A DNA stretch of 64,000 bases from Lineus longissimus (taxonomy: Eukaryota > Nemertea > Pilidiophora > Heteronemertea > Lineidae), in NCBI RefSeq assembly GCF_910592395.1, contig NC_088310.1, positions 15,447,501-15,511,500 on the forward strand, in the 5' to 3' direction. The position numbers and the translations under genes are program-made. Below the pieces are notes generated by a model. It did no database searches. It saw only the letters and a list, made by a program, of their open reading frames with translations, and was not told the origin of the DNA. Below, piece by piece: positions 10,038 to 44,254 of this stretch. Position 1 is the stretch's first letter, and each line of letters begins with the position of its first letter.

Positions 10038-10039
10038 TA

Positions 10040-13630: not shown

Positions 13631-13632
13631 TA

Positions 13633-14740: not shown

Positions 14741-15600
14741 TTTAGTCCCGCAAAAGTATTAATTGGGTCTATGTAGCTGGGGTAGGGATCGCCCTTTGCA
14801 TTATTATTTACTTCTACATGTACCCTATGCTTAAGAAAGGGTTGCTTAAGAAACTTAAAACCTGTAGTTAAACCTGAAAGGCAAGAAAAGGCTGAGAGAC
14901 TTAAACATGAAAATAAAACCAACCTTTGTTTCATGGAGTCATTATTCAAACACACTAATCTTAGTTTCAAGTGAAAAATCTAAAACAACTGATCTTCCTC
15001 TGGAATTAATAAGTTTATCATTATCATCAGTGATTTCAAATTTGAGATGATTTTGTAAATTTGTTCACAACTTTATTACAATTCAGTTCGTCTCTCTGGT
15101 TCTTTATCTGGTCACGATCTTCTGCTGGTACAATGCAAAAGATATCAGAAGGTTTATTGTAGTATGGTGTCTTACTTTGGTCAACCAAAGTAGCTCTTAA
15201 AATAAGTTCTGTTCTGTATAAGTTAAGTGGTTTGTTGGATTAGTATTTTCCTTTCTTGGTGAACGTTGCTTGTTAAAAGCCAAACCACTTATTCACCACT
15301 GTGAGTATGTCTTCCCTAACCTCTTTTATGAAAGTGCTTATCTGGACACCTTGTGTGTTTTTCTTAATCTTGATTTGTTCATTTTTGTATCAAATGTTTC
15401 TTCCAGTGAGAAATATTTGTCCTCTGGAAGTTCAATGATAAGGTAATTATTGTTATCACAGTTGATGTCAACATGGCTAATTCCAGCACCCTTAATAAAC
15501 CCTTACCATACTTCACATAACTCACTGAAACTAAAATGTCGTGAGCATTGAAATCTGCATTCAATAATGATTTCTTTTGTTGTGGTAGATTCATTTTCCA
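14737..15600 (-). pseudogene. Possible Polinton-associated ORF remnants
   Basis: Downstream of the PolB relic on the same strand are two short ORFs (15379-15594, 14737-14970) and, between frame changes, a readable stretch HVDINCDNNNYLIIELPED. They are too broken to name. Their place next to PolB suggests other genes of the same element. Confidence 0.3.
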
Positions 15601-15899: not shown

Positions 15900-17370
15900 T
15901 TATTTACAGTGAAAGGCCTAACTCATTTGAAGTTTGAATCACTGTAACCAATGCATTTTTCATTATCCTTCCCGAATAATAGCGTAGACATTCCATCTTT
16001 TAAGATGAATATCTTGTCATCAAAAGGGCTCAGGCTTTTCTTTTTAACCTCCTCCAAATACATCTGATGCTTTTCTGATCTCAAATAGCGCATTATGTGA
16101 TTAGACGAGTTATTGTTTTCAAGACAGTCAATGTAGTCATCGAATGAGATATCTATCCGAACAACGTTTTTGGCAATTCCCTTCAGTTTCTTTGCTTCTG
16201 AATCGTTTGTTCTGTAAGCATACATCTTACTTCTTATGGTAATAAATTCTATCATCTCTACTCCTCCTAGCTCATCCTTAAAGTAACCTGGCACCTACTT
16301 CTTGCTAGTGCCGTAGAGTGGGTGATCCTTGGGATAGCTGCTGAACTCGAAGTGATCCTTTGACACTTTAAGTTCTCCGGTTAAGTCATCAGTTTTGATC
16401 TTCAGAACGAATGAATCAGTATCCAAATACAGTAGTTCCAGGATATCTTCTCACCAAAGTATGGTTTAAGAACCTCAAAGTAGAATTCATGCATGAAAAA
16501 CTTAGACAATTCCAAGACTGCAGCACCAATGTAAATTGGTTTGTTGAACCTCATGGATGTTCTCTCCATCATAATCGTAGATTTCTTTTCGTCGAACATG
16601 CAAATTTAGGAAAACCTAGGATTGGCCATGAAGCTCTTGGCTCTTTCTCTGTCTGGCACCAATTCAATTTCCATCCTGTTCCTTATGTTCTCACAAGTAT
16701 TACCATAGAAAGAATTGTTCATCAGTTTAAAGTAGACTTTCTCGAAATCCACAGTAGAATCCATCCTTCTTTTAGTGTTAAAATCAATGTATGACACCAA
16801 CCACTTTGACTGCTTGAAACGGATCACAGAATAAATCTTCTTCAATACCATACCTTGCTTTAAGTAAAACTGTAGAATTCTGTAATGCACTATGTAGTTA
16901 ATTTTATCCTTTTGTGTCAGTATCAACTTTTCTACATTAGATCTTTTCTCTCACCCAGTAACTCTCTCTGGTAAGGACTTAATTCATCATCATCGATTTT
17001 AAAAGAGAGATTCAGGACAGAATGGGAAGTCCTTTAAATTTGAACTTGGTATTTTCGGGATAAGCCAAGTCGACCACTAAGAAATAGCCTACTTCACTGT
17101 GCTTAGGAATTCCTAATATCTGTTCTTTAGTAATTGATTCCAGGATCTTCTCTTCAATCATTTCAAAACTACTGTAAGGCTGAGGTTCCATCATAGCCCA
17201 ACCATAAAGGTTATTTGCATCGATGTAGACCAACTTGTGGTGATCATCGGCCTTAACATGTCTTGTTCCCATTATGCCTGAAATGCCTCCTCTTATTTCC
17301 TTTTCAACAGTAAGTAAGATGTTGTAGCCTGTACGAAGTTTGACATTTAATTCAGTGTAATTCAAACCAG
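15900..17370 (-). pseudogene. Protein-primed family B DNA polymerase of Polinton/Maverick type, broken
   Basis: Four ORF pieces on the minus strand are collinear with the C-terminal half of PolB. The first (17012-17365) has YIDANNLYGWAM, which holds the motif A Asp. The second (16606-16926) has KLMNNSFYGN, motif B. The third (16402-16599) has NKPIYIGAAVLELSK and then changes frame. In the new frame motif C reads LDTDSF, near 16430. The fourth (15923-16294) has YFKDELG and ends DDKIFILKDG, the thumb region. An in-frame TAG separates the third and fourth pieces. The exonuclease half is not visible. Such polymerases replicate Polinton/adintovirus-like elements by protein priming; this copy cannot be active. 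Confidence 0.8.
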
Positions 17371-17399
17371 CTTGCCTAGTTCAAGGAAACCTATAGCGA

Positions 17400-22098: not shown

Positions 22099-22263
22099 AT
22101 TAGTTAACAATTTACTACTTAATTTTAAGAGTGTACCGAAAGAAAGGCTATATTTCTGGTTTTTTGAAGTAATCTGTCTTTGATGTATCTCTTTATGATT
22201 ATCATGTATATACCGCGTTCATCAATTAAGTGTCCGCTAAAGCAGATCCACATTTACTTGCAG

Positions 22264-22499
22264 GCTCCAATCAAGCTGAAATTTGATCTACTGGGCCTGG
22301 TCTACTATTTAGTTTCACCATATGACGACAACATCGAGAAAGTAAGGAGCATATTCCGATGGGTGACACGCAACGTGACCTATGATGTCGAAGGCTTCTT
22401 TAGCGGCAAGGCAGCCCCAGATGAATCGTACCTGAAAGTTCTTAGTACATCAAAAGCCACATGTAAGGGATATTGTAAGCTATTTTCGGAGATGTGTAG
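22264..22499 (+). CDS. KY/hillarin-like transglutaminase-like protein, internal exon with catalytic Cys
   Basis: The exon is bounded by TTGCAG at 22258-22263 and GTAAGT from 22500. It reads APIKLKFDLLGLVYYL, then EKVRSIFRWVTRNVTYD and SKATCKGYCKLFSEMC. This is the first half of the transglutaminase-like core; the Cys in ATCKGY is the expected nucleophile. It ends in phase 2 and joins exactly to the exon at 42889, restoring an AGG Arg codon and the family order. KY proteins are muscle/cytoskeletal peptidase-like proteins that bind filamin in vertebrates; hillarin is the fly relative. Exons upstream (N terminus) were not found in the window. The intron that follows is 20.4 kb and filled with transposons. 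Confidence 0.85.
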
Positions 22500-22760
22500 G
22501 TAAGTGGAAAAAAGCTACAGATTGTTGATTAAAAATATTGCCATTTTAGGCATGTTAAAGCTGAACTGCATGCACAAAACCAGAGCGTCCCATGCGGCAA
22601 TAGTAAGAAATTCAAATGATGGAAAGGTCCTTCTGAATACGGCCTGAAACATGATAGACCTCCAATGCTTCGATGCGCTCGATTTCACAAACCAGCAAGC
22701 CACAGGACGATGCGGACAGTCTCGGAGAATAATGGAAGAGAAAAAAAATCAAAATATTCA
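22500..22760. other. Start of the 20.4-kb KY intron
   Basis: No coding content is seen. The intron runs to 42888 and contains all elements listed between these points. Confidence 0.7.
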
Positions 22761-26214: not shown

Positions 26215-26530
26215 CAGCATCAATTATGCGATCGCCTGGAATCAGTCACAGAATATCTGGTACTCAGGAAGTTAAAGACTAGTCACTGCCGGGTAGCTAG
26301 TGCAATCTGCTAGAATCAGTCACAGAATATCCATTGCTTACATGCTAATGAATAACAACTGTCAGGCTATTTATCCCTTCTCCTGGTGTCAGTCACAGAA
26401 TATCCAATGCTCGGATATCAATGAATAGGAATTGCCTAGCTATTTATCTCATCTCCTGATGTCTGTCACAGAATATCCAATGCTCGGATATCAATGAATA
26501 GCAACTGCGTGGCTATTTATCTCATCTCAG
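26215..26530 (+). repeat. Tandem array, about 75-bp unit
   Basis: GTCACAGAATATCCAATGCT and TCAATGAATAG recur about four times at roughly 75-base spacing, each followed by TATTTATCTCATCTC. The last two copies are nearly identical and the first two more diverged. Confidence 0.8.
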
Positions 26531-26534
26531 CAAA

Positions 26535-27780
26535 AATCTACGATGAAGGCTGGAGGCCATTTTGGATTCTGGAATGCGCCAAAAATCGATAGAGAAACTC
26601 CCCTACTGAAGACCATTACACAACAAAAGTTTGAAGTGTGTCAAACCTCTAGTTCTTCAGTTAACAATCGAAATACCAAAATCTAAGTTGGCTGCTGGCA
26701 GCCATATTGGATTTTGGAACACGCCCAAAATTGATGGAGAGCATCCCCTGAATGACCATTGCACCACAAAAGTTTGAAGTGTGTCAAACCTCTAGTTCTT
26801 CAGTTAACAATCGGAATACCAAAATCTAAGTTGGCTGCTGGCAGCCATATTGAATTTTGGGTCAGGCCCAAAATCGACAGGGAACCTCCCCTACACAACC
26901 TCATCACACCACATAAGTTTCAGGTCTGTCACTCACTTGGTTCTTGAGTTACAGGTCGGAATGCGAAAAACCAAGTCGGGCCTGGCAGCCATCTTGGAAT
27001 TCAGATCGGGCCCAAAATGGATAGGGAACCTCCCCCACACTAGGTAATAACACCACATAAGTTTCAGGTCTGTCACTCACTCGGTTCTTAATTTACGGGG
27101 CGGAATACAAATCACCAAGTCGGGGACCTGGTGGCCATCTTTAATTTCGGGTCTGGCCCAAAATCGATAGGAAACCTCCCCTACCATAGACCATTACACC
27201 ACAAAAGTTTGAAGACTGTTGGACCTCTGGTTCTCCAGTAAACGAGCGGAATGCGAAAATCTAAGATGGTGGCTGGCGACCATCTTTGATTTCGGGTCGG
27301 GCCCAAAATCGATAGGGAACCTCCCCTACCATAGACCATTACGCCACAAAAGTTTGAAGACTGTTGGGCCTCCGGTTCTTTAGTAAACGAGCGGAATGCG
27401 AAAATCTAAGATGGTGGCTGGCGGCCATCTTTGATTTCGGGTCCGGCCCAAAATCGATAGGGAACCTTCCCTACCATAGACCATCACACCACAAAAGTTT
27501 GAAGACTGTTGGACCTCTGGTTCTCTAGTAAACGAGCGGAATGCGAAAATCTAAGATGGCGGCTGGCGGCCATATTGGATTTTGGAACGCGCCAAAAAAC
27601 AATAGGGATCCTTTGACACACTAGGCCTACACCCCCTAAAAATTTCAAGTCAGCCGAGCAAGGGGTTCTTGAGTTATAGTCTGGAATTCAGTGCGGTGGA
27701 CGCGGACGCGGCGGCGGCGTTCGCGGCGGCGGCCGGAAACCACCTAAGAACATAATGCCCCCACTTTAGCGGGGGTATAA
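26535..27780 (+). repeat. Tandem array, about 145-bp unit, GC-rich tail and short terminal hairpin
   Basis: About eight units share CCCAAAATCGATAGGGAACC, ACCACAAAAGTTTGAAG and GGCTGGCGGCCAT. The array ends in a GCGGAC/GGCGGC-rich tract (27692-27738) and then GCCCCCACTTTAGCGGGGGT (27758-27777), a small hairpin. The same order (tandem units, GC-rich tract, hairpin) occurs at 20.3-22.1 kb. Confidence 0.75.
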
Positions 27781-27891: not shown

Positions 27892-28131
27892 TTAAAAAGT
27901 CAAATCTTTACTGAGATTGACATAACCATCTTTATAATAGCGTAAATCAACAATCGATATATCTAACCACGGATTATAGCATACATGTCCATAGATGTGG
28001 TTTTTAATCAGATATCTGTTTGTATCGAGTAAACATGTATAATTTATTGGAAAATCTGTAATATTTATACTATTTGAACTTCTAGGTAAAAAATTCAATC
28101 CAGTCAGAATCACATTACCAGACATTGACAA
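27892..28131 (-). CDS. Small ORF of unknown function at the 3' side of the AT-rich cassette
   Basis: 79 codons with hydrophobic and aromatic residues alternating (NVILTGLNFLP, VDLRYYKDGYVNL), suggesting a beta-rich fold. No family recognised. It lies on the same strand and in the same AT-rich block as the three ORFs upstream, which is the only reason to link it to them. It may be a chance ORF. Confidence 0.3.
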   Translation of the reverse strand: MSMSGNVILTGLNFLPRSSNSINITDFPINYTCLLDTNRYLIKNHIYGHVCYNPWLDISIVDLRYYKDGYVNLSKDLTF

Positions 28132-28189
28132 GCATAGTACACCAAACTGTTCATTTTATTTAAACAGAAAACACTTTATGCCACTATCA

Positions 28190-28355
28190 GCTGCTGCAAT
28201 CTATAGTTAAAAAGTGGAACAAGACATAACTGTAGGAATGCTTGACAAAGGAAACTGGGTTGTCTCTGAATCCTGCTTGAATTTAGGTTAATGTAAGACT
28301 GCACTGTATGGTGCTGCCATCTATTGTTAAAAAGTGGAATAAGGCATAACTGAGC
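28190..28355 (-). repeat. Diverged tandem duplication, about 130-bp unit
   Basis: GTTAAAAAGTGGAA followed by AARRCATAACTG occurs at about 28207 and again at about 28328, each with CTATNGTTAAAAAG before and a CTTGACA/CCTGACA stretch after. Confidence 0.6.
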
Positions 28356-28519
28356 GAACACCTGACAATCAGAAATATTCTATTTCTTTTGAACTCACAC
28401 ATCCTGTTTGACTTGAGAACTAGGTTGACGACTTTCAACAAGCTGGCATGTCTGGGTCATATTTGTACATAATGAACGGATACACATATCAGATAAATTT
28501 CAGTTTTATCAACAATGTG

Positions 28520-28810
28520 TTAAACCAGATCAAATCCATAATATTTTTTACCATCAACTTTACCTGTCGATCGGATATACTTGTGCTCAGGATTGTTTTC
28601 GATCTCTTTTTTAATAATGGAGGTTGTGAATGTTTTGATCTGATTTGCATCGCTGTCTTCTAATGTAAGAATCAAAGCTTCTCCGGTTTTTGTTGAAATG
28701 TTTTGTTTTTGAATCATTCTATACCATGCGTTCAACGGAACTTCTCTCCATTTAAGAAACAATGATGATTTTTTCATTTGTGAATTTAGTTCTTCGTTTG
28801 ACGGAAACAT
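28520..28810 (-). CDS. AT-rich cassette ORF C, small uncharacterised protein
   Basis: 96 codons from MFPSNEELNSQMKKSS. The core FLKWREVPLNAWYRM and GEALILTLEDSDANQIKTF, ending KYYGFDLV, looks like a single compact beta-rich domain, and I recall similar short proteins from invertebrate genomes without an assigned function. The frame is intact, unlike its neighbours. It lies on the same strand as ORFs A and B, about 1.1 kb downstream of B, with two hairpins and a simple repeat between. Confidence 0.5.
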   Translation of the reverse strand: MFPSNEELNSQMKKSSLFLKWREVPLNAWYRMIQKQNISTKTGEALILTLEDSDANQIKTFTTSIIKKEIENNPEHKYIRSTGKVDGKKYYGFDLV

Positions 28811-28849
28811 ATTTATTTTATATAAAAAGAATTTTAATTAAATACGTTT

Positions 28850-29035
28850 TTGTACTTTTGTGCTTTTTGAGATTTTTGTGATTTCGTGATTTTGTGAACT
28901 TTGTGAACTTTTGTTAATTTTGTGATTTTTGTAACTTTTGTAACTTTTGTGACTTTGTGACTTTTGTGAACTTTGTGAACTTTTGTGAACTCTTGTGACT
29001 TTTGTGAACTTTGTGACTTTTGTAACATGACTAGA
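28850..29035. repeat. TTTTGTGACTTTTGTAAC-type simple repeat
   Basis: Units of 8-9 bases (TTTTGTGAC, TTTGTGAAC, TTTTGTAAC) run without interruption. The minus-strand ORF across it is only a low-complexity Lys/Val/Thr translation. Confidence 0.85.
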
Positions 29036-29368
29036 ATTTGACTAGGATTTGACTTGGATATTTTTGACTAGGATTTGATGAGAGTTTGACTAGGATTAGA
29101 CTTGGATATTTTTTACTAGGATTTGACCAGAATGAGCTAGAATCCCCACTTTTATACTACTCTTACGGGCGTTCATAGCCGCGCCAGAGGTTCGCTTCAT
29201 TTGATTGTAATTTCAACTTTGTACTTTAACACCATAGCATGCTTCTTCTCATACGAAATGAAAGTTATGAGATTCTTCATTGATGTAAGGAGATATCATC
29301 TCACTTACTAGACATGTCGACTTTCTCTCTCTTCACATATATCCATCACAGGGGTATTTACACATTTT

Positions 29369-29405
29369 AATTGATTCTATGTAGGCACAATACATAGAAT
29401 CAATT
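29369..29405. repeat. Perfect hairpin 1, 15-bp arms
   Basis: AATTGATTCTATGTA (29369-29383) pairs with TACATAGAATCAATT (29391-29405) across the 7-base loop GGCACAA. There is no mismatch. Confidence 0.9.
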
Positions 29406-29465
29406 TATTGCATAATATCCCTGTATGAATATAGTGTTGTAATCCATGTGAAACAGAACACAACG

Positions 29466-29500
29466 TTTATTCCTATGTAGGTGCCATACATAGGAATAAA
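29466..29500. repeat. Perfect hairpin 2, 14-bp arms, related to hairpin 1
   Basis: TTTATTCCTATGTA (29466-29479) pairs with TACATAGGAATAAA (29487-29500) across the 7-base loop GGTGCCA. The apical CTATGTA/TACATAG is shared with hairpin 1, while the lower stem differs on both sides with pairing kept. Confidence 0.9.
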
Positions 29501-29706
29501 GACGTATTATCTTGCACACCATCACACAACCAACACTCCATTTTAAGTTCATTATAATTATGTTGTTCAAAATCAACCAAAACTCGTCACATGGTTTAAT
29601 CCAAATATTTAAAATATTTCTGTCAACTTGTTCTCAGAGGTTCTAAGTTGCTTTTGTTTCAAACCTTTTTTAATCATTAGGTACTATCACTCCACACTTT
29701 CTAGTA

Positions 29707-29876
29707 AGTGTAGAGTATAAGGAAAGTGCATGCTAGATTATTCGGTTTTGTATTGGAGATATGGCAACTGTTATTGGGAAAAACACTTGTGTTTGTTTTT
29801 CCCTTATTGATAGGTTTTGGCCTTTTTTGCTACAATAGTCTTAGATATCGTAGATTGCATTATCCTTATACTGATA
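29707..29876. mobile_element. About 170-bp inverted-end repeat, copy 1
   Basis: It starts AGTGTAGAGTATAAGGAAAG and ends in a rough inverse, GCATTATCCTTATACT. The interior shares GGTTTTGTA, GGGAAAAACACT, TTTTGGCCTT and TACAATAGTC with copy 2 at 32617. Size and ends fit a MITE. It lies downstream of ORF B of the cassette. Confidence 0.7.
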
Positions 29877-29944
29877 CTATGGTACCAATGGTTATCCTTC
29901 TATTTTAAAAAGTAACCTAATTCTATCAAATAAATGAATCCTTG

Positions 29945-30826
29945 AATCTTTTTTTCTTCAAAACATTAAGTGTTAAACGTTTCAATCTTTCAATTTGTCC
30001 CACTCTTTCATTGTCTGATTCAAACACCTTTTCCTTTTCTTCTTCTAATTTCTCTTCTACTTCTTTTATTTAATTTTTTAACACTTCTTTGTCTTCTTCT
30101 TTGTCTACATCATATTCTTCTAGTTCTTTTTCTAATCCTTTTATTTGTCTTTGTTGTTCATATTTCTGTATTTGTAGTTCAATTATCTGCATGTTTTTTT
30201 CTGCTTTTATTCTAGCAATATTTTGACTTTGATTTTTTATCCTGTTAATTTCTCTAATATCTTAATCACTAAAACCGAATGCCCTAAATTCTTCTTCATT
30301 TGCATCTAACAACTTTTCTCTGGGTCTATCTATTTATCTTTCAGCATAGAATTCACCATTATTTTTTTTAGTTAGAGGTATTGTGATATAAGTTTTGCCA
30401 GGAGTTTGATATTGCATTTTCTTTTTGGGTTGGTGCCAACTTTTTGACTTCATTTTGGGATGGATAGTATAATAGATCATCCCCTTTTATACGTAAATAT
30501 GGCACTAAATTATTCAGGTCTTCACTGACATATTTCCATGTTGTTCCTTCTAATACTTTTACAAGTTTATCCTTATTAGCTATGTATTGTGAATCTTAGT
30601 TCTCCAGTTCTGGTACAGTACTTTTTACTAATCCAGGTGTGTCATTAAATGAAGTCTCTTTAGTTAAATTGCTTCTATTACTTACACCAGTGATGTAGCT
30701 TGTATCACTAATATCAACACGATTACTATTTAAAATATTAGTATCATGACTTTCATCATGAATATTAGATTCTGGAGACATGTACTGTTCCTTCATTTCA
30801 AACTCATCTACTCCACCCTCTGCCAT
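29945..30826 (-). pseudogene. AT-rich cassette ORF B: acidic N-terminus plus long coiled coil
   Basis: A single frame, interrupted by stops and one frame change, can be followed from MAEGGVDEFEMKEQYMSPES. After a stop at 30596 it continues through VLEGTTWKYVSEDL, shifts frame near 30380 and reads DRPREKLLDANEEEFRAFGF. A Glu/Lys/Gln-rich helix of about 90 residues follows (KAEKNMQIIELQIQKYEQQR), clearly coiled-coil in character. I noted four in-frame stops, all TAA. The plus-strand Leu-rich ORF at 29970-30215 is its shadow. Function unknown; a structural or scaffold role is a guess. Confidence 0.55.
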
Positions 30827-30890
30827 ATTTATAATTTCTGAAATTATATAATCAGAAATTATATAATCAGAAATTATCTAGTCAAAAAGT

Positions 30891-32388
30891 TATGTAATTA
30901 AAAAATGTATGTAATCATAAAAAGTAAACAATGCTCCAAGACTACCGAGCAGTGTGTACTTAATTACATTATGTGTGTCATAATCCTGTTTAATAGTAAC
31001 ATGAGTAACAGTATCCTTCTTAATAGGAACATTAGTACTAGTACTAGTATCAGTTTATCTATTTTCTCCTACAGGGGTCTTAAAAGGATGATCCTTAACT
31101 TTCTCAACATTAGTCTTAACCTTTATTTTCTTAACACTAGTTACACCATTAGTGGTGGTGCTACTATTTTCTTTTTATTAATATCGTTAATACCAAGGTT
31201 AGCATTACTTCGAGCTATATAGATGTTATTATTGTAGTTATCTATCGTACCTACATTTAGAACCATGTCTGACCCTATGATGTACAGGCCAGGTCCTATT
31301 ACAAAATCTAGTCTTGTATGTGTTTGGGTAACAGCATTTTGATACCTTCGAATTGAGGTCGGAATATCAGGGTGTTTATTCATCGAATCCCTTAGCAGCT
31401 TCTTAAACTCCCTCTAAGCATCTAATTCTGTCCCGGGTATTCCAACTATCGGTGTTCTAGTATCTCCCTGTGATCCCAAAAGACAGTAAACACATATGTC
31501 CTGATAGAGTCATTCAACCTCTGTATTCCAGGATTACTTAAACCTTTAGAGATTTTTAATCATAAACATCTGATATGTTTGAGTAAAATTCTGATTTTGA
31601 GAATTAAACACATGCCTGTGTTTATTATGGTGATCTTTAATCCACCAAAGATCCCAATTTAGGTTATTCATACCACTTTTCCAATCTTCATAGAACATTG
31701 GTGGTGTTTTATTTTCATAAACCTGGTGTAAAAGGAAATTAATTTGATCATTAATAAGATAAAACCCTGGATCCTTTATCACAGGAACTTAAGAGTGGTT
31801 CACTACAACCCTGCCAACCACCATGTACATTGAGTACCGAGAAGTAATACTAATCCTTTAAACCAAACTCACTCAATAGCTCTTTAAGTTTCTTACGATT
31901 AATGTTGTTATTACCTTCATTGTAAATACCTTGACCTGGTGTTGGTATCTCTAGATTTTTAAATATCTTTAACATTTGATAGTAAGTATAAAAACCTGTA
32001 AATTGATCACTGTGATTCAAATGGTCGTCTCTTGAAATACCACAACCAGTGGTAGCAAACCATACAGCTATGTTAAACTGATTCTGGTAATTCAATAGCA
32101 GTTTCTTCTGCATCCTTAAACAATCTCCCCTGTTTTTCAATCTTAAAAGTCCGGGAACTATGTTGGGTTCCTTAAGTCTAAAGAAGTTATTAGTATTAAC
32201 ACTTATTTGTAAGTTAAAGAAATCATATGTGAAATTAGTGTCTTGCTTCTTAGGAACAGGGTAGTACTTAAAATATCTTGTTTTACCACTGAAGATGTCG
32301 GTTCTTGCGTTCTTTTATTTTCGCCACCTTCGGAGCTAAGCCGTTCTCTAGGACTAGAGACGTAACTAAAAGTCTTATGCCTCTTCAT
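30891..32388 (-). pseudogene. AT-rich cassette ORF A: about 460-residue uncharacterised protein with C-terminal membrane segment
   Basis: Pieces in order: a basic N terminus MKRHKTFSYVSSPRERLSSE, then after a frame change a stretch ending MQKKLLLNYQNQFNIAVWFA and ATTGCGISRDDHLNHSDQF, then PGFYLINDQINFLLHQ, a piece with NPGIQRLNDSIRTYVFT, then TQTHTRLDFVIGPGLYIIGS followed by NYNNNIYIARSNANLGIND, a Lys/Thr-rich linker, and a hydrophobic C-terminal helix TLLGSLGALFTFYDYI. The pieces lie in one order on one strand, so this is one gene with several frame changes and at least three in-frame stops (TAA and TAG). I recall similar proteins as unnamed repeats in cnidarian and mollusc genomes. Role unknown; a membrane-anchored element or virus-like protein is possible. 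Confidence 0.55.
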
Positions 32389-32616
32389 CCTTGTATTTAT
32401 TGAATTTGAAAACCAGTGTAAATTTTAGTTCGTAAAAATCACAACAGATCGCGCTTGCATAGGTTGCTCTTTGAATCTAGTCCAAAGGTTAGATTTGTTC
32501 TTTAAGGATAAAATTAACCTATTCACTCGAGTTAGTCTCACGGACTGCATGAATTAGCTGTGTTGTTCTTTGTGCACCAGATCATGAAGACTTTACCGAC
32601 TTTACAGGTTGTAGTC

Positions 32617-32767
32617 AGTGTAGAGTATAAGGAAAATGCATGATAGATTATTTCGGTTTTGTAATGGAAATAAGGAAACTTTAATGGGGAAAAACACTAA
32701 TTGATAGATTTTGGCCTTATTTTCTACAATAGTCGTAGATATCGTAGATCGCACTTTCCTTCTACTA
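32617..32767. mobile_element. About 150-bp inverted-end repeat, copy 2
   Basis: A direct-orientation partner of 29707-29876, starting with the same AGTGTAGAGTATAAGGAAA and ending GCACTTTCCTTCTACT. It lies 229 bases upstream of the start of ORF A, so copies 1 and 2 bracket ORFs A and B. Confidence 0.7.
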
Positions 32768-32799
32768 AAAGGACATGACTTCTTGATTGTATAAAGTGA

Positions 32800-34328
32800 C
32801 TCACAACAATCCCCTGTCATTGTCGTCCAATTGTCCTGAATAGGAAATTACGCATGTATTTCCTAGGAACCACTTCATTCGGATCTCATGAAACAGATCC
32901 TGCCTGAGGACACCGTTCATGGGGGCAATTGTCACAATGGCTGCTTATAATTCAAGCAGCCTAGTTTTGGGTGAAATCATGAACAATGTTGATGTCATAA
33001 AACACCACATAAAGTCGCTGCTTCGCTTCTGCATAGGACTTGGCTAAAAGGAGGGAGTCTTTGGAATGCAAATGGAGGATAAAACACCTTTGTAAAGAAA
33101 GAGTCCAGCTCCAAAGGGGCATTTTCACTTGACGGGGGGGGGGGGGGGGGTACAGGGGGTTATTTAACTGGGGGAGCAATTGACCGGGTGGGGGGGGGGG
33201 GGGTATTCCTAGAACCCCTCTGGATACTAGCATCATGAAAGCTTTTAAATGCCAACTACCATGATTGGGAAAGTCCCCAAAGTCTGCTCAATTATTGACG
33301 ACAATGAAGGTCAACATGTACAAGTAGAACTTGGACAATTAGCTGAAATTGAACAGAGTGACAAGGAAGATGATTTACACTTTTTAGATGAAGAGCCAGA
33401 TTATCGAGAATAAACAAAATTGTTCTTTGCGTCATCAGATAAAATGTATCCATATCCCGGTGAAAGGAATGGCAAGTTGCCATTGAAATAATGCATCTGC
33501 CTTCCCTTTATTTACACAGCAACATTTCATCCGTGGTAAGCATTCAACGGTTGCAATGCACTACTAATTTCTAAGGGCAGCTTTGGCGTTTTGAGTGCAG
33601 CAGGATTTTAGGCGAACTTTGACAGTCAACTATCTAGCCCAATGTTCTGAAGCTTTGACAACACATGTACAATGTTACATGTTTCAACATTATTCGCAAA
33701 CCCAGGTGACCTCCAGGACTGACATAACTGAGTATCCTGAAACGCGCAGGTCGCTTAATAGTTCAGGTCATCAATGTCTATTGTTGGAGTAATGGACATC
33801 ATCGCTATTGTTACAGTAAAAATTGACAACTTAGCTGGACTTAAACATTTTTTGAATCGCGTTGGCTTTGACGGCGGGGTCAACGTGAGTCTACTGTATA
33901 TGTACGATAATGTCTCGAGATAAATAACTCGGGCGATCGAGATATCATCTCGGGCGATCGGGTAACGAAATCGAGGCCATTCAACATTCATACCAAGACT
34001 ACAACTTAAAGGGGGAGTACAGGCAGGAGATAGGAGATAAAATTGTTCGTCTTTGTGTGACTTTTGTATACATCTAGGGTCCAGGTTGTGTTCGATTCAA
34101 CAAAATCATTGTATTACTGATACAAGTGCGAATAGTTTCGATGTTCTCTGAGATCGGAGCATCACCGATCAGTGATTTTGTGTAACTTTATCTGTCCTTC
34201 TTGGCTCCTGTCTATTTTCTCTCCCTTTAAGTACATTTCACATTTGGGGAAGCAAAAAACTACAAAACAATGATACGTAGAAATGTGCTCAGCTATCAAA
34301 GATTCGATTATAATGTAGAACATGCCTG
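32800..34328. other. Gene-free stretch with G-tracts
   Basis: Poly-G runs lie at about 33135-33150 and 33190-33203. Two copies of CTCGGGCGATCG lie near 33928 and 33948. No coding motif is seen. Confidence 0.55.
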
Positions 34329-35024: not shown

Positions 35025-35273
35025 GTAAACTCAATGAGGACTTCAGGGATTCAAGCAAAAAATCAGTAAGTCGTGCAGATTGTCAGCGGACGGTGTCTGT
35101 AGATTTCACTTCCTACAGACCGAGTCAGAGGTTCATTGTGAATGAACATGAGAGACTAAGTGGACTCTTGATTGAATTTATCTTGTGGTATGGTTCTGTT
35201 CTAGTACCGTACAGTTCAATCCAGTTTCAAATTTAAGATACAAGGTCAGGACTCTTTGAGATTCTAAGTAAGC

Positions 35274-36089
35274 ATGGAATCGGAAAGGTCCGCAACGCAG
35301 GACAATGTGTCAGTGGCCACACGGGCCAAGGTCAAGTCCGCATACGCAAGAAGGGAGACTCAGCTCACTAGGCTCGAAACCATTTCTGCTAAACAGGAGC
35401 CAATGCTCATTACTAGTGAAACTAGCATAGAGGACATGAGACCTCAGCATTCGGAGTGGTTGGGGGAATTCGAACAGTACATCATATGGCACAAGGATAT
35501 TCTGGGGATGTTATCGGCGAAAGACAAGGAGGCTTTCGAAGAAAACTTAGAGGATGAAATGAAACACTTCGAGGATTTCAAGGAAAGGTTGGATCGGTGG
35601 TTCTTGGAAAACGACGCCCCACGTACGTGTAGGCCTATCTCCGGAGGGAGGACAGGATCTAGAAAATCTGGTGGTTTGGTTCGGTCAGGATTTTCGTATC
35701 GGTCTAGCAGGAGTAGTGTCTCAATGGCAAAGGCAGAGGAAAATCAGAAAAAGGCCGAGTTACTGGCCAGGGCTCATGCACTACGGGAAAAGAAGCAGCT
35801 CAAGGAGGAGAAACTCAGGCTCAAACTCAAGGAAGAGGAGTTTCAGATAAGAACCGAGATCAAAGTGGCAGATGCTAGAGTGGCAGTCTTAGAGGAGTTG
35901 GAAAGAAGTGAACAACAGGACGAGGATATACTGAGAGACATCGTCAATTTGGGGGTATTTGAAGAATCTGCACCCGAGAAGCAGGTAGCATCAACCCCTA
36001 AGGCCAAGGGTGTTACAATTAATTTGGGGATGCCAGAGTTTGTCCTTGGTGCTATAAGGGGGCAGCTTCAGAGTGAAACAGAGAAGTAG
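35274..36089 (+). CDS. BEL/Pao gag, N-terminal part
   Basis: 271 codons starting MESERSATQDNVSVATRAKV about 250 bases after the 5' LTR. It has an N-terminal helical region, an RSGFSYRSSRSSVS patch and a long Lys/Glu/Arg coiled coil (EEKLRLKLKEEEFQIRTEIK), the layout of BEL/Pao gag before the DUF1759-type region. A stop at 36087-36089 separates it from the downstream gag ORF, whose homology follows within 170 bases, so the stop probably breaks one gag-pol frame. Confidence 0.75.
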   Translation: MESERSATQDNVSVATRAKVKSAYARRETQLTRLETISAKQEPMLITSETSIEDMRPQHSEWLGEFEQYIIWHKDILGMLSAKDKEAFEENLEDEMKHFEDFKERLDRWFLENDAPRTCRPISGGRTGSRKSGGLVRSGFSYRSSRSSVSMAKAEENQKKAELLARAHALREKKQLKEEKLRLKLKEEEFQIRTEIKVADARVAVLEELERSEQQDEDILRDIVNLGVFEESAPEKQVASTPKAKGVTINLGMPEFVLGAIRGQLQSETEK

Positions 36090-36258
36090 CAAGTCAAGGA
36101 TGACAGTAAGCAGATGGAGACGGTGCAGCCTCATGGAATGGAGGACACTATGCATAGTACTAGTTTTAATGTAGGTCGTCAAATGCAGATCGATTGCAAG
36201 CCAAGACTGCAGGACAGTGAAAGGAATCACAATCCTATAACAGTGCAGGATAGGGATA

Positions 36259-37155
36259 ATGCAGGGCAGTGGTAATATAAGTGACAATGCTTCAGTGCAG
36301 ATGGACTCTGTTGTTAAAGAGTTAAGGAAACCTGCCTCGGACCTTAAGAAATTCTCGGGTGATGTGCTTGATTATCGCCGTTTCTTACGCCAATTTAATG
36401 CACGAGTGGTGAGCAATAACACAACTAACGATAAACGACTGAACTATCTGGAAGAGTTCACGGATGGAGAGTCAAATAAGATAGTTTCAGGCTACAGCTG
36501 TTTGGAGGCAGATGTTGGATATCCAGCGGCTCTATCAGAACTTGAGAGGAGGTATGATGACAAGGAGTTGGTAGCAAATGCTTACATCAGACGTGCCCTT
36601 GAATGGCCCATAATTAAAGCAGACAATCCAAGTGGACTTGATGCCTATGCTATATTTTTAGTCGAGTGTCAGAACGCAGTCAAGGCGATAGATGCATTAC
36701 GAATCCTGGAGTATTCAGAAAACTTAAAGAGACTTGTTAGCAAGTTAGCATGGCTTCATGACAAATGGAGAAGCATAGCCCAGGAAACACGAGATAAGGG
36801 TGCCGTTGTGAAGTTTGATCATCTGGTAAAAATGGTGCAGAAGGAGGCCAAAAAGGCTATGGATCCACTGTATGGCAGGCAGGCAATGAAGGGGCCAAAT
36901 CTGCAATCGGGAGGTAAAGACCAGAAGCCAGTTGTCAAAGGAAATGCTAGTAAAACTCCATCAACGTTTCAGCGTGAGAAGCCCAACTCGAATGGTAGTA
37001 CCGGTTGTGCCGGTGTAACAGTAACAAATGCCCCCCTGGAAAAAGTGTCCGGCCCTATTTTATTCTGCAATATGGTTCTAAAGATCCTGACCGTCAATAG
37101 CTCAGAGATTGAAGCGCATAATAGAATCCTTTGTTTCCCGGGCATTCTATCCTAG
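36259..37155 (+). CDS. BEL/Pao gag, DUF1759-like region
   Basis: 298 codons including LKKFSGDVLDYRRFLRQFNA, NDKRLNYLEEF and SGYSCLEADVGYPAALSELE, the signature order of the DUF1759 gag region of BEL/Pao elements (particle-forming protein). The C-terminal 60 residues depart from the family near 37020, and the zinc knuckles that should follow are out of frame. Confidence 0.8.
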   Translation: MQGSGNISDNASVQMDSVVKELRKPASDLKKFSGDVLDYRRFLRQFNARVVSNNTTNDKRLNYLEEFTDGESNKIVSGYSCLEADVGYPAALSELERRYDDKELVANAYIRRALEWPIIKADNPSGLDAYAIFLVECQNAVKAIDALRILEYSENLKRLVSKLAWLHDKWRSIAQETRDKGAVVKFDHLVKMVQKEAKKAMDPLYGRQAMKGPNLQSGGKDQKPVVKGNASKTPSTFQREKPNSNGSTGCAGVTVTNAPLEKVSGPILFCNMVLKILTVNSSEIEAHNRILCFPGILS

Positions 37156-37189
37156 GACATTTAAATTTCTACACCGGTAATAATAGTGA

Positions 37190-38245
37190 TAGTCAGCAAG
37201 GAAAACCTGGAGGAGACTTTGCGTTTGTGGGTTCTGTAAGGATGGCCATGTGGGTTCTGTAAGGATGGACATACTATGGAGCACTGCAGTAAATTAAAGG
37301 CCAAGTCACTGAATGATAGGAGGGACTTTGTCAAATCGAAAGGGCGTTGTTTTAGGTGCCTCAAGCCTGGGCACCGAGCCAAATTTTGTCGTAACCGGGC
37401 TAAGTGCTCGAATTGAAGTGGAACACACCCTACACTGCTTCATAGAGAGACTGATCCACTTTTGGAGTCGACCGAAAAGAAGGCATGCGCGTCAACTATC
37501 ACAAGTGAAACTGGTGCCAGCGCAACAAGTGGTAGTGCAGACAACCTACAGTGGTGAATGGGAGCAGGAGCGGAGAGTGCGGGACAGTGTACAATGGCAA
37601 TAATTCCTGTCAAGATAAAGAATTCGGATGGCAGCATATTTACAGAGACTTATGCCTTTCTTGATTCAGGTAGTAATGTCAGTTTCTGCACAGATAAGTT
37701 AGCCTTTCAGCTGGGAGTCAAGGTGAAACGTACCACAATGAAATTAGAGACAATGGGAGCTACCCAGAACTTTGTAACGCACCAGATCTCGGGGCTTGAG
37801 ATAACCAGTCTTGATTGTGATATCAGCCGTTGGGGAAAGTGTTTACTAAATCAAAGATGCCTGTCACAAGCGATCTCATTCCAACTCAAAAGGACATTAA
37901 GAGATTCGAACACTTAAAGGACATTAGTTTGCCGGTGATCAGTGCAGGGATTGGCCTGCTGATTGGGAATAATGTGCCAGACGTGTACACACCACTACAG
38001 CTGAAGACAGGACCAAGGGGCACACCTCATGCAGCGAGGACAGCTATTGGCTGGGTTGTTTGGAATTTAGTCCGAGAGAACAAGTTGGAGGAAAAGAAAT
38101 GGGAGCAACATCGTTCAGCGAACAGAGCAGAAGTGTCTGCCATCGAAGAAGCTGAAAGTTTACAAAGACTCGAAACCATGGTCAGATCAGCGATCAACAT
38201 GGACTTTCCAGAACGTGGTGTAGATAGCAAGTGGGAGCCATTTAT
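37190..38245 (+). pseudogene. BEL/Pao zinc knuckles and aspartic protease, broken
   Basis: Two CCHC-type knuckles are readable (CGFCKDGH...; FRCLKPGHRAKFC in the next frame). A 23-bp tandem duplication at 37226-37268 lies within the first and shifts the frame. A stop follows. A further frame (37558-37917) carries AFLDSGSNVSF, the protease D-S-G active site. A later frame (37830-38264) carries GLLIGNNVPD and TAIGWVVWN, the region between protease and RT. Homology ends at about 38245. Confidence 0.75.
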
Positions 38246-39178
38246 TATAAAATCGCTGTTTTAATCGCGTCAGACTGGCCAACTGCCGAAGACGTTTTGT
38301 AAAATCCGCACTAAGTCACGTGACCTCATTACGTCACAACATGAACAAGTCAGACCGTCGAATATTTTCCTATTCGCTCTAGGAAGAAGCTATATCCACA
38401 GTAGTTCGCGTACGCTCAGGAAAATGAGGTATAAAAATAGTTTTAGGAATACCATTATCATGACGTCAGCGATGGAATTTCCTGGTTGGACTTAGGAAAT
38501 TTATGATGAAATGACTAGGACTGTGGACTTGGGGGGAGGGGCGGTACCTTCCCATACTTCGTTACTTCGAGATTTTTTCCAAATGTGCTGGACGACCCCA
38601 ACGGCAGATGAATTTGGAGTTGGTTCTGGAAGTTATGTTCCGGCGGAGCATCAGGAGGAGAAGATGAACCACCGGCTGGTGACCTCTTGACTCAAACTTC
38701 ATGGTGACGGCCCGGTTCTTTGATAGGGTCAGGCCAGCGGAAAACCCCAACACCTTCAGTTTTGCTGGTGTTGCCGCAAAACATTGCAGCACAATGCCAC
38801 CCGACAACTCTTTTCTTCTTCTTCTCCATAATCTTCAGTTTTTACTGTGTATATATTGTGTAAGGACAGGATGGAATGTCAATGGTCAATGGCAGTTGTA
38901 AATAAACGAATGAGATTTTTTTTTTCGCGGGAATGTAAACCACCGCGACCACGAAAATGTTCATGTTGTGACGTCATCAGCGAAAACGTCGCCGGCGTAG
39001 CGCGATTTCAACGGCATCGAAGCGAGCCGTCCGGGCAGGATTAAAACCATCAATTTGTAGAAAATGTGCATTTCGATTCGAAAACCTTACCGATTTATGA
39101 GAAAGTGACGTAGTCATTTGTCAAAAACAGCTAAAACATTATATCGTGAAATTTGACACGAGTTACCCTTTAAGATCA
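38246..39178. mobile_element. 0.9-kb non-coding insert replacing the BEL reverse-transcriptase core
   Basis: BEL homology stops at about 38245 and resumes at about 39179 in the RT C-terminal region, with the RT catalytic domain absent. The insert has no coding motif. ACGTCACAACATGAAC near 38333 is inverted as GTTCATGTTGTGACGT near 38959, suggesting a non-autonomous inverted-repeat element. Whether it caused the deletion or landed in an already deleted copy is unclear. Confidence 0.6.
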
Positions 39179-39180
39179 GA

Positions 39181-39880
39181 TTGAAGGAGAAGTCAGTTTA
39201 TACAAGAAGAGGAATCCTGTCAGTCGTCAGCAGCATTTTTGACCCCTTAGGATTAGCAGGACTATTTGTCTCACCAGCTAGGATCCTGTTGCAGAGGCTG
39301 TGCAGCGAAAAGATAGGTTGTGATGACAATATCGGTGACAAGGAAGTGAAACAGTGGGTGCACTGGTTGGTGGATATCCTGCAGTTGGAAAAAATAGCTG
39401 TACCGCGAAGTGTCAAACCACAAGAGTTTACATCCATCGTATCTATCCAGCTACATGCATTCGCCGATGCATCAGACAGTGGTTATGGGATTGTAGCATA
39501 CAAACGCCTTGAAGATGACTAGGGACGGATCCGCTGTACTCTTTTTTTTGGCAAGGCTCGAGTCGCTCCACTTAAGAAAGTCATAATGCCGAGGATGGAG
39601 CTGACAGCAGCCAAGGTTGCAGTAAAGTTTGTCACCATGATTACTGCAGCTATGGATTTGAAGTTCGATGAAACATTCTATTGGACAGACAGCATGTCAG
39701 TACCAAGATACATTGCCAATACGACAATACGATTTCATATGTTTGTTGCGAACAGGGTCACAACTATTCAAGAAGGTTCTACTCTAGACCAGTGACGCTA
39801 GGTACCCACTCAGTACAATCCGGCCGATGCTGCATCTCGTGGGATTCAAGTCAGCGATCAAGAGGCTACAGAGCAATGGT
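39181..39880 (+). pseudogene. BEL/Pao RT C-terminus and RNase H, broken
   Basis: VYTRRGILSVVSSIFDPLGL is the conserved BEL segment after the RT palm. LHAFADASDSGYG holds the RNase H first Asp. A TAG follows at 39520-39522, and MPRMELTAAKVAV (Glu) and FYWTDSMSVPRYI (Asp) follow in another frame. At least one stop and two frame changes are present. Confidence 0.75.
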
Positions 39881-39975
39881 TATCAGGACATAAGTTTCTA
39901 TGGGAGCGGGAGTCACAGTGGCCTAAGTCAGAGTTCTTAAAGGAGCTGTCACCAGAAGACCTGGATGTCAAGAAG

Positions 39976-41328
39976 GTGCATGCTACACTCAGAGATTCAG
40001 CAGAGGACGAGTTGACACCGCTCAGTTTCACAGAGTTACGGGCTGCGAAGTCAGCCATTGTCAAGTACTTGCAGGAGAAACATTTGCCAGATAACGGAAA
40101 ACACCTGGGATCAGTACAGAAACGTGATCGTTTCGTAGATGATGGGTCGGCTACGACAAGCAAGGATCCCAACGGCAGCCCAGTGTTATTGCCAAAGGAT
40201 TCGCCAGTGAGAAGACTCATCATCAGGGATGCACATCAGAGAGTCGGACATCTTGGTTCTAACAGTACGTTAAACTTACTGAGACGGAGATATTGGATAC
40301 CTAGGGCAAGCCTTCTTATACGAAGCATCATCAGCAAATGTACTATATGTCGCAAGTACAGAGCGGAACTGTTAGTTCAGAAAATGGCAGACCTTCCATT
40401 GCAGCGACTTGAAATGGATCAGCCAGCTTTCACACAGTCAGGTGTGGATTATTTTGGTCCTTTTATAATAAAGAGAGGAAGGAACACTACACTCAAGAGA
40501 TACGGTGTTATTTTTACGTGCCTTTCAACCCGGGCAGTTCATCTGGAAGTTGCCCAAGGACTCACAACAGACTCTTGCATTAACGCTGTTAGAAGATTTG
40601 CCGCAAGGAGAGCTGTCCAGAGATTGAGATCATACAACGGTACAAACCTAGTTGGAGCCCGTAAAGAATTGAGAGAAGAAATGTCCAAGTGGAATCATTC
40701 CCAGATTGGCTCTGCATTACGTCGGAAAGGCATAGAATGGGATTTCAACTGCCCTACAGCATCCGATCAGGGAGGAGCCTGGGAACGACTCATTAGATCA
40801 GTCCGTAAAATACTCTCTGGAGTTGCCAAGGAACAAGATATACATCTTGACGATGAAGGATTGCAGACCCTCTTCTGTGAGGTGAAGTATATTTTGAAAA
40901 ATAGGCCGATCACTCGAGTATCTAACGATGCAGTGGATGCATCAGCTTTAACGCCGAATCACCTACTCAGATTTCATTCAGACAAGGCACCACAACAAGG
41001 GTTATTTGTAAGGGAGGACAACTTTGTCAAGAGGAAATGGCGTCAGATTCAGCACATCGCTGATGTGTTCTGGCGACGTTGGAGTAAGGAGTATCTCGTC
41101 GGACTCCAGGAACGGCAGAAATGGAGAAAGGAGCAGCGATCGGTCCAGGTAGAAGACGTTGTGTGTTTCGCAGACACCATCATGCAGCGGAACCAGTGGC
41201 CATTGGGTCATGTGAGAGACGTCGTCGAGGATAGCGATGGGTTTGTGAGAGTCGCTAGCGTCCTAACCGGGACTACCATCTTGAAACGTCCGATTACTAA
41301 ACTATGTCTCATTCTTGAAGCGGAATAA
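39976..41328 (+). CDS. BEL/Pao integrase, uninterrupted but lacking one catalytic Asp
   Basis: 450 codons with no stop. The H2C2 zinc domain is HQRVGHLGSNSTLNLLRRRY...CTICRKYR. The core begins SGVDYFGPF (first Asp). The second catalytic site reads RSYNGTN where the family has SDNGTN, so the Asp is Tyr (codon 40633-40635). The third is GGAWERLIRSVRKIL (Glu). The C-terminal region ends WPLGHVRDV and a beta-rich tail. Integrase would insert element cDNA; this one should be catalytically dead. The true frame extends upstream of the first Met as part of pol. Confidence 0.85.
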   Translation: MHATLRDSAEDELTPLSFTELRAAKSAIVKYLQEKHLPDNGKHLGSVQKRDRFVDDGSATTSKDPNGSPVLLPKDSPVRRLIIRDAHQRVGHLGSNSTLNLLRRRYWIPRASLLIRSIISKCTICRKYRAELLVQKMADLPLQRLEMDQPAFTQSGVDYFGPFIIKRGRNTTLKRYGVIFTCLSTRAVHLEVAQGLTTDSCINAVRRFAARRAVQRLRSYNGTNLVGARKELREEMSKWNHSQIGSALRRKGIEWDFNCPTASDQGGAWERLIRSVRKILSGVAKEQDIHLDDEGLQTLFCEVKYILKNRPITRVSNDAVDASALTPNHLLRFHSDKAPQQGLFVREDNFVKRKWRQIQHIADVFWRRWSKEYLVGLQERQKWRKEQRSVQVEDVVCFADTIMQRNQWPLGHVRDVVEDSDGFVRVASVLTGTTILKRPITKLCLILEAE

Positions 41329-42460: not shown

Positions 42461-42888
42461 AGTTACGTTCGACTACCTAACAAACTTATTGTGGCTCTAT
42501 TTTGAGAAAACAAATCACGACAACTTGAATATAGTTTGGGTTTGGGTGGGGGGGGGGGGGCAAGGTGATTCAACTAGCCAACGGGTTTTTACATCTTCAC
42601 CATCCGGGTTAACCACCGAGGTTTTGCATCTCATCAAGATATATACCCTTGCTATATGCAAAGGTAGTATAAGACCATGAGGTTCTGGATGGGATTAAAA
42701 TAGTGCTACAGCATTTTGAACCACTAATTTTGTGGGTTTTCAAAGGGGATTTGAACAGGCAAAATCCTTGTTACTTTTATTCATTGCGAGGAACTGCCTG
42801 GTAAATTATTACTTTGTGAAAAAGTCATTCTACTTTAAACTATCAAAAGTAATTAAAAAAATGTGATTATTACATTATTCTTTTCCAG
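42461..42888. other. Intron remainder before the last KY exon
   Basis: Contains a G-tract at about 42546-42560. A pyrimidine-containing acceptor (TTCTTTTCCAG) lies immediately before 42889. Confidence 0.7.
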
Positions 42889-44254
42889 GGTTGCAAGTAT
42901 ATCATGTACCTGTGTACAAGGCTACGTGAAAGGATATGACTATCTCCCCGGTGATACGTTCGTTGGACGACCAGCCAACCATCTGTGGAACTTGGTAAAT
43001 CTGGACATAACTCGGGAATGGATGCCAGTAGATTGTTCCTGGGGTGCAGGGTACATTAAAGAAGGAACAAAGAGCTTTATACATGAGTTTAGAGACCATT
43101 ACTTCTTGACGCCGCCATCTTGCTTCATTCGAGACCACTTTCCCTTGGATCAACAATGGCAGCTATTACCTCGCCCGATCCGATTAACTAGATTCGAACG
43201 CGAGCCTCACGTGAAGCAAGCGTATTTTAGGCACAACGTTGAGCTGCTGCACCCACGTAGTGGAGGCATGATCACCACACAAGGCTCTGCAAGAATCCTC
43301 CTAAGGATTCAAGAGAAAATGACCTTGGCTTATGATCTTCATCGCAAGGACGACATTAAGTCCGGCAAGAAATGCATCCACAGCTGCAATGGGAAGGTTC
43401 TGTTGCAGTCCTACGACAAATTTTATGAGTTTCTCGTCTTCATGGATGAAGAAGATGACTATATATTTAGGATTTACACGATGAATGTCGTTAGTAGCGC
43501 CGGTTTATTGTCTTTTTGTCTGCGAGTATGTGAGGCTGTGACGTATGCCCCGCCACACAAAAATATATCTGCACAACTCTGGGGACCTACCGATCACTTC
43601 ATTAAATGTACGCTGTCGTGCTTAACTGACCCGATTCACGATGGTCTTCCTAGTTTCTATAAAGCATACGACGGGGAATTCTCCCTTGAGATGGCCTTTC
43701 GTAAACAACTCCGTGTGCTACATAAGCTGGAATATTACACAATCGACGGAACATTGATGGAGATATCGCGAAGGGTTATGCACAACTATACTCCCAGAGG
43801 TACCATGGTGTTTATTGCTAATTTACCGTGGTCAGGCTGGTATAAATTAACCTTATATGCACAGGAGTTTCCCCCATCTTTAGGCCTACAGTCATTTGGC
43901 CTCCCACCAGTTTTCTACTGCTGTATCCTTGCCAATGGAAAGTGTGATCCGAACTTCTCATTCCCTCGTCTCTGTCCAAGGTGGGATACAGGGTGTACCC
44001 TGATAACGCCCCAATCCGGCAACATTAAGACACTGGACCGCAATAAACTGAGGGTGAGAATCCCAGACGCATCGAAGGTAATCGGTTTCCATAGTCAATG
44101 CGCTGTTCCATTCCGGCAGAAAGAATTGAAGACGTGGGAAGCTGATTTCAGATTGCTGTCAATAGGTGGAGGCATATTCAAGCTGTCTGCGAAGTTTCAT
44201 GATGACACTAATATCCCATATGAGGCTCTTTTGTTATTTGAAGTTGTACCATGA
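42889..44254 (+). CDS. KY/hillarin-like protein, large 3'-terminal coding exon with catalytic His and Asp
   Basis: After TTTTCCAG the frame continues VASISCTCVQGYVKGYDY, then NHLWNLV (catalytic His) and MPVDCSWGAGYI (catalytic Asp), completing the Cys-His-Asp triad begun at 22264. About 400 further residues follow, with repeated beta-rich segments and CPRWDTGCTLITPQSG, resembling the KY-specific Ig-like C-terminal domains. The stop is TGA at 44252-44254. There are no stops or frame breaks across 454 codons, in contrast to all neighbouring elements, which argues that the gene is under selection. No convincing AATAAA was found close downstream. Confidence 0.85.

Follow-up and report, generated by a model that had tools for sequence, protein, structure and literature searches.

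The window analysed in this study comprises 64,000 nucleotides of the genome of the nemertean Lineus longissimus (NC_088310.1, positions 15,447,501 to 15,511,500). Between positions 27892 and 32767 it harbors a cassette that is distinguished from its surroundings by its composition, with a GC fraction of 0.29-0.37 across 28001-33000 compared to 0.38-0.47 in the 3 kb to each side, as already remarked in a first-pass annotation of the same DNA. The annotation had described three minus-strand coding remnants termed A, B and C, whose positions are borne out by our analysis, where A and C have database relatives and B matches other copies in the host genome. The assumed location in a host intron is consistent with two Pfam matches on the plus strand, Transglut_core at 22168-22503 and Ig-like_KY at 42857-44254, which, as we infer, would be parts of one gene, and the cassette thus probably resides inside an intron of a kyphoscoliosis-peptidase-like animal gene.

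Gene A (30891-32388, minus strand) is decayed and its coding text is split over two frames with stops, which are recovered by database protein P0003 in a tblastn search as two separate alignments (32266-31796 and 31785-31147, E 1e-125). Its family comprises proteins of about 440-540 residues, with eight database relatives of 302-542 residues, five of which show a C-terminal hydrophobic stretch in their hydropathy. The AlphaFold model of the family has a pLDDT of 34, too low for the model to be used. Scans of viral_contigs and genome_contigs with A and a search of phage records yielded no match. Gene B (29883-30826, minus strand) is represented by its N-terminal part only. Its longest open piece of 76 residues is no longer than expected by chance (median of 75 in 1000 mononucleotide shuffles) and no relatives were found in the protein database at E <= 0.1. 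Despite this chance-like length we consider B to be real, since its pieces find counterparts in the translated DNA of 11 among the 20 other copies fetched for A-B. The window lacks the hydrophobic C-terminal part that B has in other copies, and a query with this part finds positions 29883-30000 only. The matches of the Pro/Glu-rich C-terminal part of B from copy L026 to Trypan_PARP (0.00046) and TonB_N (0.0014) are far below the cut-off and were put down to composition.

Gene C (28520-28810, minus strand) is an uninterrupted open reading frame of 96 residues with relatives in two database proteins (P0001 at 68% and P0002 at 71% over 68% of C) and at a related locus of the host, L034 (48%, E 4e-27). 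Its repetitive leader, composed of units of 9-48 bp (28838-29134, minus strand), is also found at the latter locus, since positions 28716-29092 of the window align as DNA at 68% (E 5e-26) to 8918-9297 of L034, a stretch that holds the leader and the beginning of the C homologue. A fourth open reading frame of 87 residues is located at 27892-28155 on the minus strand. Both C and the fourth frame exceed the 95th percentile of the longest open run in 1000 mononucleotide shuffles (74 and 62 residues, respectively), a control that is lenient in both cases as the intervals were picked for being open. The AlphaFold model of C, with a pLDDT of 47, is likewise too poor to be used, and scanning viral_contigs with C gave no match. 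Profile and sequence searches, the former proposed as a check in the annotation, returned no match at E <= 0.001 in the libraries searched, which were Pfam, PHROG, NCBIfam and PDB for C and for the pieces and relatives of A, and Pfam and PHROGs for the window pieces of B; the same holds for the fourth frame in Pfam, PHROGs and NCBIfam. The nearest matches in these searches, one of C to a protein A chain (0.011) and one to FlhF (0.012, far below the cut-off), were regarded as chance-like. The region also contains a hairpin with 14-bp arms and a 7-nt loop (29466-29500) and a related one with 15-bp arms and a 7-nt loop (29369-29405), neither assigned to a strand. Three perfect hairpins of at least 11 bp occur in the region, compared to 0.05 on average over 20 mononucleotide shuffles. 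Hairpins resembling the pair were absent from eight loci checked and from viral_contigs when scanned with one strict pattern, one of two DNA patterns that gave no match in this collection.

The A-B DNA is a dispersed repeat of the host genome with at least 75 matches, 40 of 374 candidates having been scored. Half of the 20 fetched copies (eight if three near-identical duplicates are counted as one) have a major capsid gene downstream of A in the same orientation, L009 has one on the strand opposite to A, and no capsid gene is present within the 10 kb stretch of nine copies. The scan for Capsid_N in A-B copies covered two pieces, with a match above the cut-off in L010 (PF16903, 5e-6) and one below it in L026 (0.0042). 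The C12 copy, which spans about 18.6 kb including a LINE-like insertion, continues past the capsid gene with an A32-type ATPase (Pox_A32, PF04665, 4.5e-11 in L029), an integrase end piece that has no rve match, a chromodomain just behind it (PF00385, 2.1e-7) and pieces of a polymerase. The latter match decayed pieces of a family-B DNA polymerase within the window (15923-17380, minus strand), which represent a distinct fragment from this family of elements and show 55-87% to the pieces of L029 and 31-49% to the polymerase of L034, with a further match in L031. These pieces are accompanied by remnants of the neighbours of the polymerase (13336-15293, no strand assigned), whose order matches that of L029. 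The reported absence of integrase and polymerase motifs holds within 27892-32767, the polymerase remnants being located outside of it in the same window. Three of the window pieces have no Pfam polymerase match, and a fragilysinNterm match of one piece (0.0025) is below the cut-off and was taken as chance. Relative to A, the polymerase is encoded on the opposite strand in the C12 copy, whereas both share a strand in the window, and the window fragments therefore do not constitute one colinear element. Among the DNA_pol_B_2 matches listed (91 of 520 candidates scored), none was located within 20 kb of the listed A-B places when compared by eye.

The identity of these genes is further illuminated by L034, a related locus where a C homologue, a polymerase, an A homologue (423 residues, E 3e-47, with about 31% identity to the A family), an rve integrase (PF00665, 2.6e-11) and a capsid gene (Capsid_N, 1.5e-5, above the cut-off) reside on one strand within 10 kb. 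The polymerase, an open reading frame of 1348 residues, scores 99.3 bits to DNA_pol_B_2; its Pfam scan at E <= 0.1 listed only Endonuclease_7 and missed even the polymerase domain, which makes it indecisive as to the OTU-like domain of adintovirus polymerases that it likewise did not list. Across the relatives, an adenovirus-like cysteine protease had no match among the pieces scanned, which cover part of the open reading frames, a 210-residue frame near a capsid gene, considered as penton candidate, had none in Pfam or PDB, and scanning viral_contigs with MCP queries revealed no relative. A Capsid_N capsid, an A32-type ATPase, an rve integrase and a family-B polymerase together make up the set of Maverick/Polinton elements, and the presence of A and C homologues beside polymerase, integrase and capsid genes in L034 identifies both as genes of this type. 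We are thus highly confident that the cassette consists of clustered, decayed fragments of virus-like elements of the Maverick/Polinton type. The proposal of a decaying, virus-derived mobile element is thereby supported, whereas its description as a type devoid of named core genes is not supported, since its relatives carry a capsid, a Pox_A32 ATPase, rve and chromodomain matches and DNA_pol_B_2.

Whether A, B and C belong together, as initially assumed, has received a divided answer: at the level of the family A and C share L034, but neither C nor the fourth frame was found in the 24 stretches around A-B copies. This absence, together with the match of C and its leader to L034 as DNA, in a locus whose A homologue is so distant, slightly favors an origin of C and the fourth frame from a different Maverick-type family resembling L034, which would merely adjoin A-B at this place. 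Conversely, the sequence that precedes the polymerase in the A-B family is represented by a single decayed copy (L031), so that a C gene may yet exist there, and the fourth frame has no match in L034.

The direct repeat reported just upstream of A and just downstream of B was recovered at 32609-32766 and 29699-29872 (78% over 175 columns, E 1e-39). The first of these, on the minus strand, has its outer border at about 32766, from where it reads inward AGTAGAAGG, and the homology between copies stops at this sharp border in six of the 20 fetched copies (L009, L014, L015, L016, L021 and L026) and in both copies of the window. The repeat is thus, as judged from these alignments, the left end of the element, and A and B are situated just inside of it. 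Both window copies and four of the six others start with AGT, the exceptions being L009 and L015. Of the comparison of outer borders envisaged in the annotation, the conserved left end has emerged; a right end, which would complete an inverted-repeat pair and allow target duplications to be recognised, was searched for in the C12 copy and not found. Since the second repeat abuts the truncated B at a distance of about 10 bp, a second left end with its leader (29558-29872, minus strand) follows B in the same orientation, and the picture of a single cassette bracketed by a repeat is not supported. The leader part is found in L026 (3744-3874, 83%) and L011 (4242-4293, 92%). With A broken, B truncated at the start of the second left end and the remainder missing, the copy in the window is dead. 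The simplest reading of an end abutting a truncated gene is that a second element inserted into B and afterwards largely disappeared, and a similar junction on C19 (L032), where a tm146 remnant precedes a like-oriented left end, resembles this case. However, no other part of the window yielded the rest of B, and tandem concatemers or recombination between copies would yield the same junction, which leaves nested insertion at about even chances. It is very improbable that A and B, with or without C, form a small non-autonomous element located beside Mavericks by chance, with the 160-bp repeats as paired long terminal direct repeats: directly oriented repeats do stand at either side of A-B in the window and nine copies lack a capsid gene in their stretch, but other copies carry the repeat only on the side of A (E <= 1e-4), B in several of them passes the site of the second repeat to reach the capsid gene, and L034 contains A between polymerase and integrase. 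The first two of these observations also led us to reject a MITE or LTR.

Collectively, the assignment to Maverick/Polinton-type elements places a formerly unknown element and implies that a Maverick-type virus family has left a fossil record dispersed through the genome. In light of its hallmark genes, the live element would have relied on a protein-primed polymerase for its replication, on the ATPase for packaging into an icosahedral capsid and on its own integrase for insertion. A may act in the particle or its assembly as a tail-anchored membrane protein, B as a coiled-coil, membrane-active minor virion protein and C as a small replication protein resembling those that bind single-stranded DNA. 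A and C are two conserved genes of the lineage that are undescribed in the libraries searched; that A is a widely conserved, tail-anchored core gene of the Maverick/Polinton lineage and C, with its repeat-rich leader, a second such gene serving replication, is a tentative proposal that we regard as rather unlikely. The retention of A from L034-type to A-B-type elements at about 31% identity would, if this reading is true, point to a membrane step, be it an inner virion membrane, entry or egress. Maverick particles are thought of as bare icosahedra, and the role of A would bear on whether they carry or cross a membrane.

Comparison with known systems extends to adenoviruses, whose minor core proteins pVI and pX are presumably of the same sort as B, a likeness drawn from appearance: the C-terminal part of B similarly contains hydrophobic stretches and a basic tail, although it has no sequence match to either. 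Adintoviruses and meldviruses (Buck et al. 2024, PMC11071296) are alike in their animal host and the possession of polymerase and capsid genes, and the succession of integrase and chromodomain in the C12 copy parallels that of adintoviruses (PMC11071296). From Polintons/Mavericks the present elements differ in genes A and C with their lack of library matches. Shared are the family-B polymerase, which is found in relatives (L034 and, by similarity, the C12 copy) outside of 27892-32767 and is presumably protein-primed, the rve integrase of L034, a predicted double-jelly-roll capsid matched by Capsid_N in L010 and L034, the FtsK/A32-type packaging ATPase of L029 and an AGT-type left end, whose start comes near the motif (AGT)2 given for Maverick ends in PMC8097293.

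The segment at 27892-32767 displays the properties that the first-pass annotation had ascribed to it, namely a base composition richer in A and T than its flanks, coding remnants in one direction and a direct repeat with one copy preceding A and the other following B. Its GC content of 29-37% compares with 38-47% in the adjoining kilobases, the remnants A (32388-30891), B (30826 to about 29883) and C (28810-28520) and a fourth short ORF (27892-28155) all reside on the minus strand, and the two repeat copies (29699-29872 and 32609-32766) share 78% identity. The decay of A is reflected in shifts of its reading frame and in stops that interrupt the coding text. On the plus strand, pieces with Pfam matches to Transglut_core (22168-22503) and Ig-like_KY (42857-44254) look like exons of a single kyphoscoliosis-peptidase-like gene, which would place the cassette in an intron of that gene. 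Two perfect and related hairpins with 7-nt loops at 29369-29405 (15-bp arms) and 29466-29500 (14-bp arms) are 97 bp apart and exceed the expectation from 20 mononucleotide shuffles. To the left of the cassette (26316-27612), an array with a 73-bp unit is followed by another with 7.5 copies of a 145-bp unit, both satellite-like, and judged from their ORFs, the regions 8181-12255, 35268-41328 and 60865-61674 presumably contain further mobile elements (LINE, BEL/Pao-like, Harbinger-like).

A DNA search with A-B of the host genome (391 Mb in 30 contigs), in which 40 of 374 first-look candidates were scored, revealed at least 75 matches with identities of up to 93% excluding the window itself. Among 20 stretches of 10 kb sampled around such copies, ten contain a capsid gene downstream of A on the same strand (L010, L011, L012, L015, L020 and L022-L026), corresponding to eight independent cases since L022-L024 are near-identical duplicates; one (L009) carries this gene on the strand opposite to A, and nine are without it within their 10 kb. 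The Pfam scan encompassed two capsid pieces, with Capsid_N matched above the cut-off in L010 (5e-6) and below it in L026 (0.0042), and the remaining capsid loci were called by similarity to L010. Pieces of B were found in 11 of the 20 stretches and a piece of its C-terminal part in two more (L010, L015). The C-terminal part of B, which is missing from the window, occurs in L026, L015 and L020 and in L026 contains several hydrophobic stretches. In stretch L028 (C14:4270500-4280499), a segment of at least 4.3 kb with A recurs at 4.7-kb spacing with 99.95% identity, which could stem either from recent duplication at this locus or from duplication in the assembly.

When copies are compared, the outer edge of the repeat forms a sharp limit to the homology upstream of A in 6 of the 20 copies as well as in the two window copies; in four more (L010, L017, L018, L020) the inner part of the repeat alone is matched. 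This edge begins with AGT in the two window copies and in four of the six bordered copies (AGTATAAGG or close) and departs from it in L009 and L015. In vertebrate Mavericks, the commonest termini are (AGT)2//(ACT)2 or (AG)3//(CT)3, with 6-bp duplications (PMC8097293). We interpret the repeat as the element's left end. Since B in other copies extends through the site where the window carries the second repeat, B of the window is truncated, and a second left end together with its leader follows it directly. A comparable junction is found on contig C19 (L032). A nested insertion would be the simplest cause of the junction in the window; tandem copying or recombination may possibly have produced it. 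Left ends lie beside the remnant of another element in the same orientation at this L032 site (321-696) and in the opposite one in L011 (3722-4293).

The organization beyond the capsid gene is illustrated by a copy on contig C12, which was tracked beyond 10 kb via L026 and the separate stretches L029 and L031. Downstream of its capsid gene follow ORFs of 80, 210 and 146 residues, an A32-type ATPase (4.5e-11), an integrase end piece, for which the Pfam scan gave no rve match, a chromodomain (2.1e-7), several unassigned ORFs and finally polymerase pieces that look as if split by a LINE. These polymerase pieces are similar to the decayed one at 15923-17380 in the window, whose own pieces gave no Pfam polymerase match, and at 13336-15293 neighbours of this polymerase are recognizable in the same order as in the C12 copy. 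By this comparison, the window holds two separate fragments of one family, one from the left end and one from the polymerase side, and their strands show that they do not form one colinear insertion. The right end of the C12 copy was searched for and not found, and thus no inverted repeats or target duplications were demonstrated for the A-B family.

At least 85 polymerase-domain matches were detected in the host genome (91 of 520 candidates scored), and one 10-kb stretch at each of two such loci served as control sample. In the first (L033), an integrase with chromodomain is present, and A and C were not found in its 10 kb. The second (L034) contains on a single strand a C homologue (48% identity, 4e-27), a 174-aa ORF, an uninterrupted polymerase of 1348 aa, an uninterrupted A homologue of 423 aa (31% identity, 3e-47), an rve integrase (2.6e-11) and a capsid gene clipped at the stretch edge (Capsid_N, 1.5e-5). 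A repeat-rich leader precedes C in both L034 and the window, with a DNA alignment of 68% (E 5e-26). C was detected in one of the two polymerase loci sampled and not in any of the 24 stretches examined around copies of A-B, and the apparent co-occurrence of A and C is based on the single locus L034. Within the polymerase of this locus (3760-7803), there is an Endonuclease_7 match (5.5e-7). Polymerases at C3:15937434 and nine other loci share an identical Pfam score of 93.1 bits, and their open frames span 1323-1352 aa. This pattern suggests that a different family of Maverick type has been active recently.

Among 5.8 billion proteins, the readable stretch of A has eight relatives (49-66% identity, 302-542 aa, six of at least 405 aa) and C has two (68-71% identity), and no relative of B was found at E <= 0.1. 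A and C are genuine protein families. Among their relatives scanned, none has a Pfam, PHROG or NCBIfam match at E <= 0.001; the best PDB chain for the A family is at E 0.87. A hydrophobic stretch of 19 residues constitutes the C-terminal end of all five A relatives examined and of the L034 homologue. Gene neighbourhood, domain matches, left border and decay are direct observations. In the proposed mechanism, the element would have replicated through protein priming, and its genome would have been packaged and integrated. A would act as tail-anchored membrane protein, B might be a membrane-active minor virion protein and C a candidate ssDNA-binding-like protein.

The relatives in the host genome resemble Maverick/Polinton elements in that four of the hallmarks of these elements, a DNA_pol_B_2 polymerase, an rve integrase, a Capsid_N capsid gene and an A32-type ATPase, are encountered among them, but not all four in one stretch, and protease and penton were not identified in the relatives examined. 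A or C may correspond to a gene that bears a name (PW, PZ, PM) in other Mavericks. The integrase and chromodomain of the C12 copy fit adintoviruses, whose definition includes an integrase with chromodomain (PMC11071296). The Endonuclease_7 match in the L034 polymerase resembles the homing-endonuclease domains that are reported within polinton polymerases (PMC11071308).
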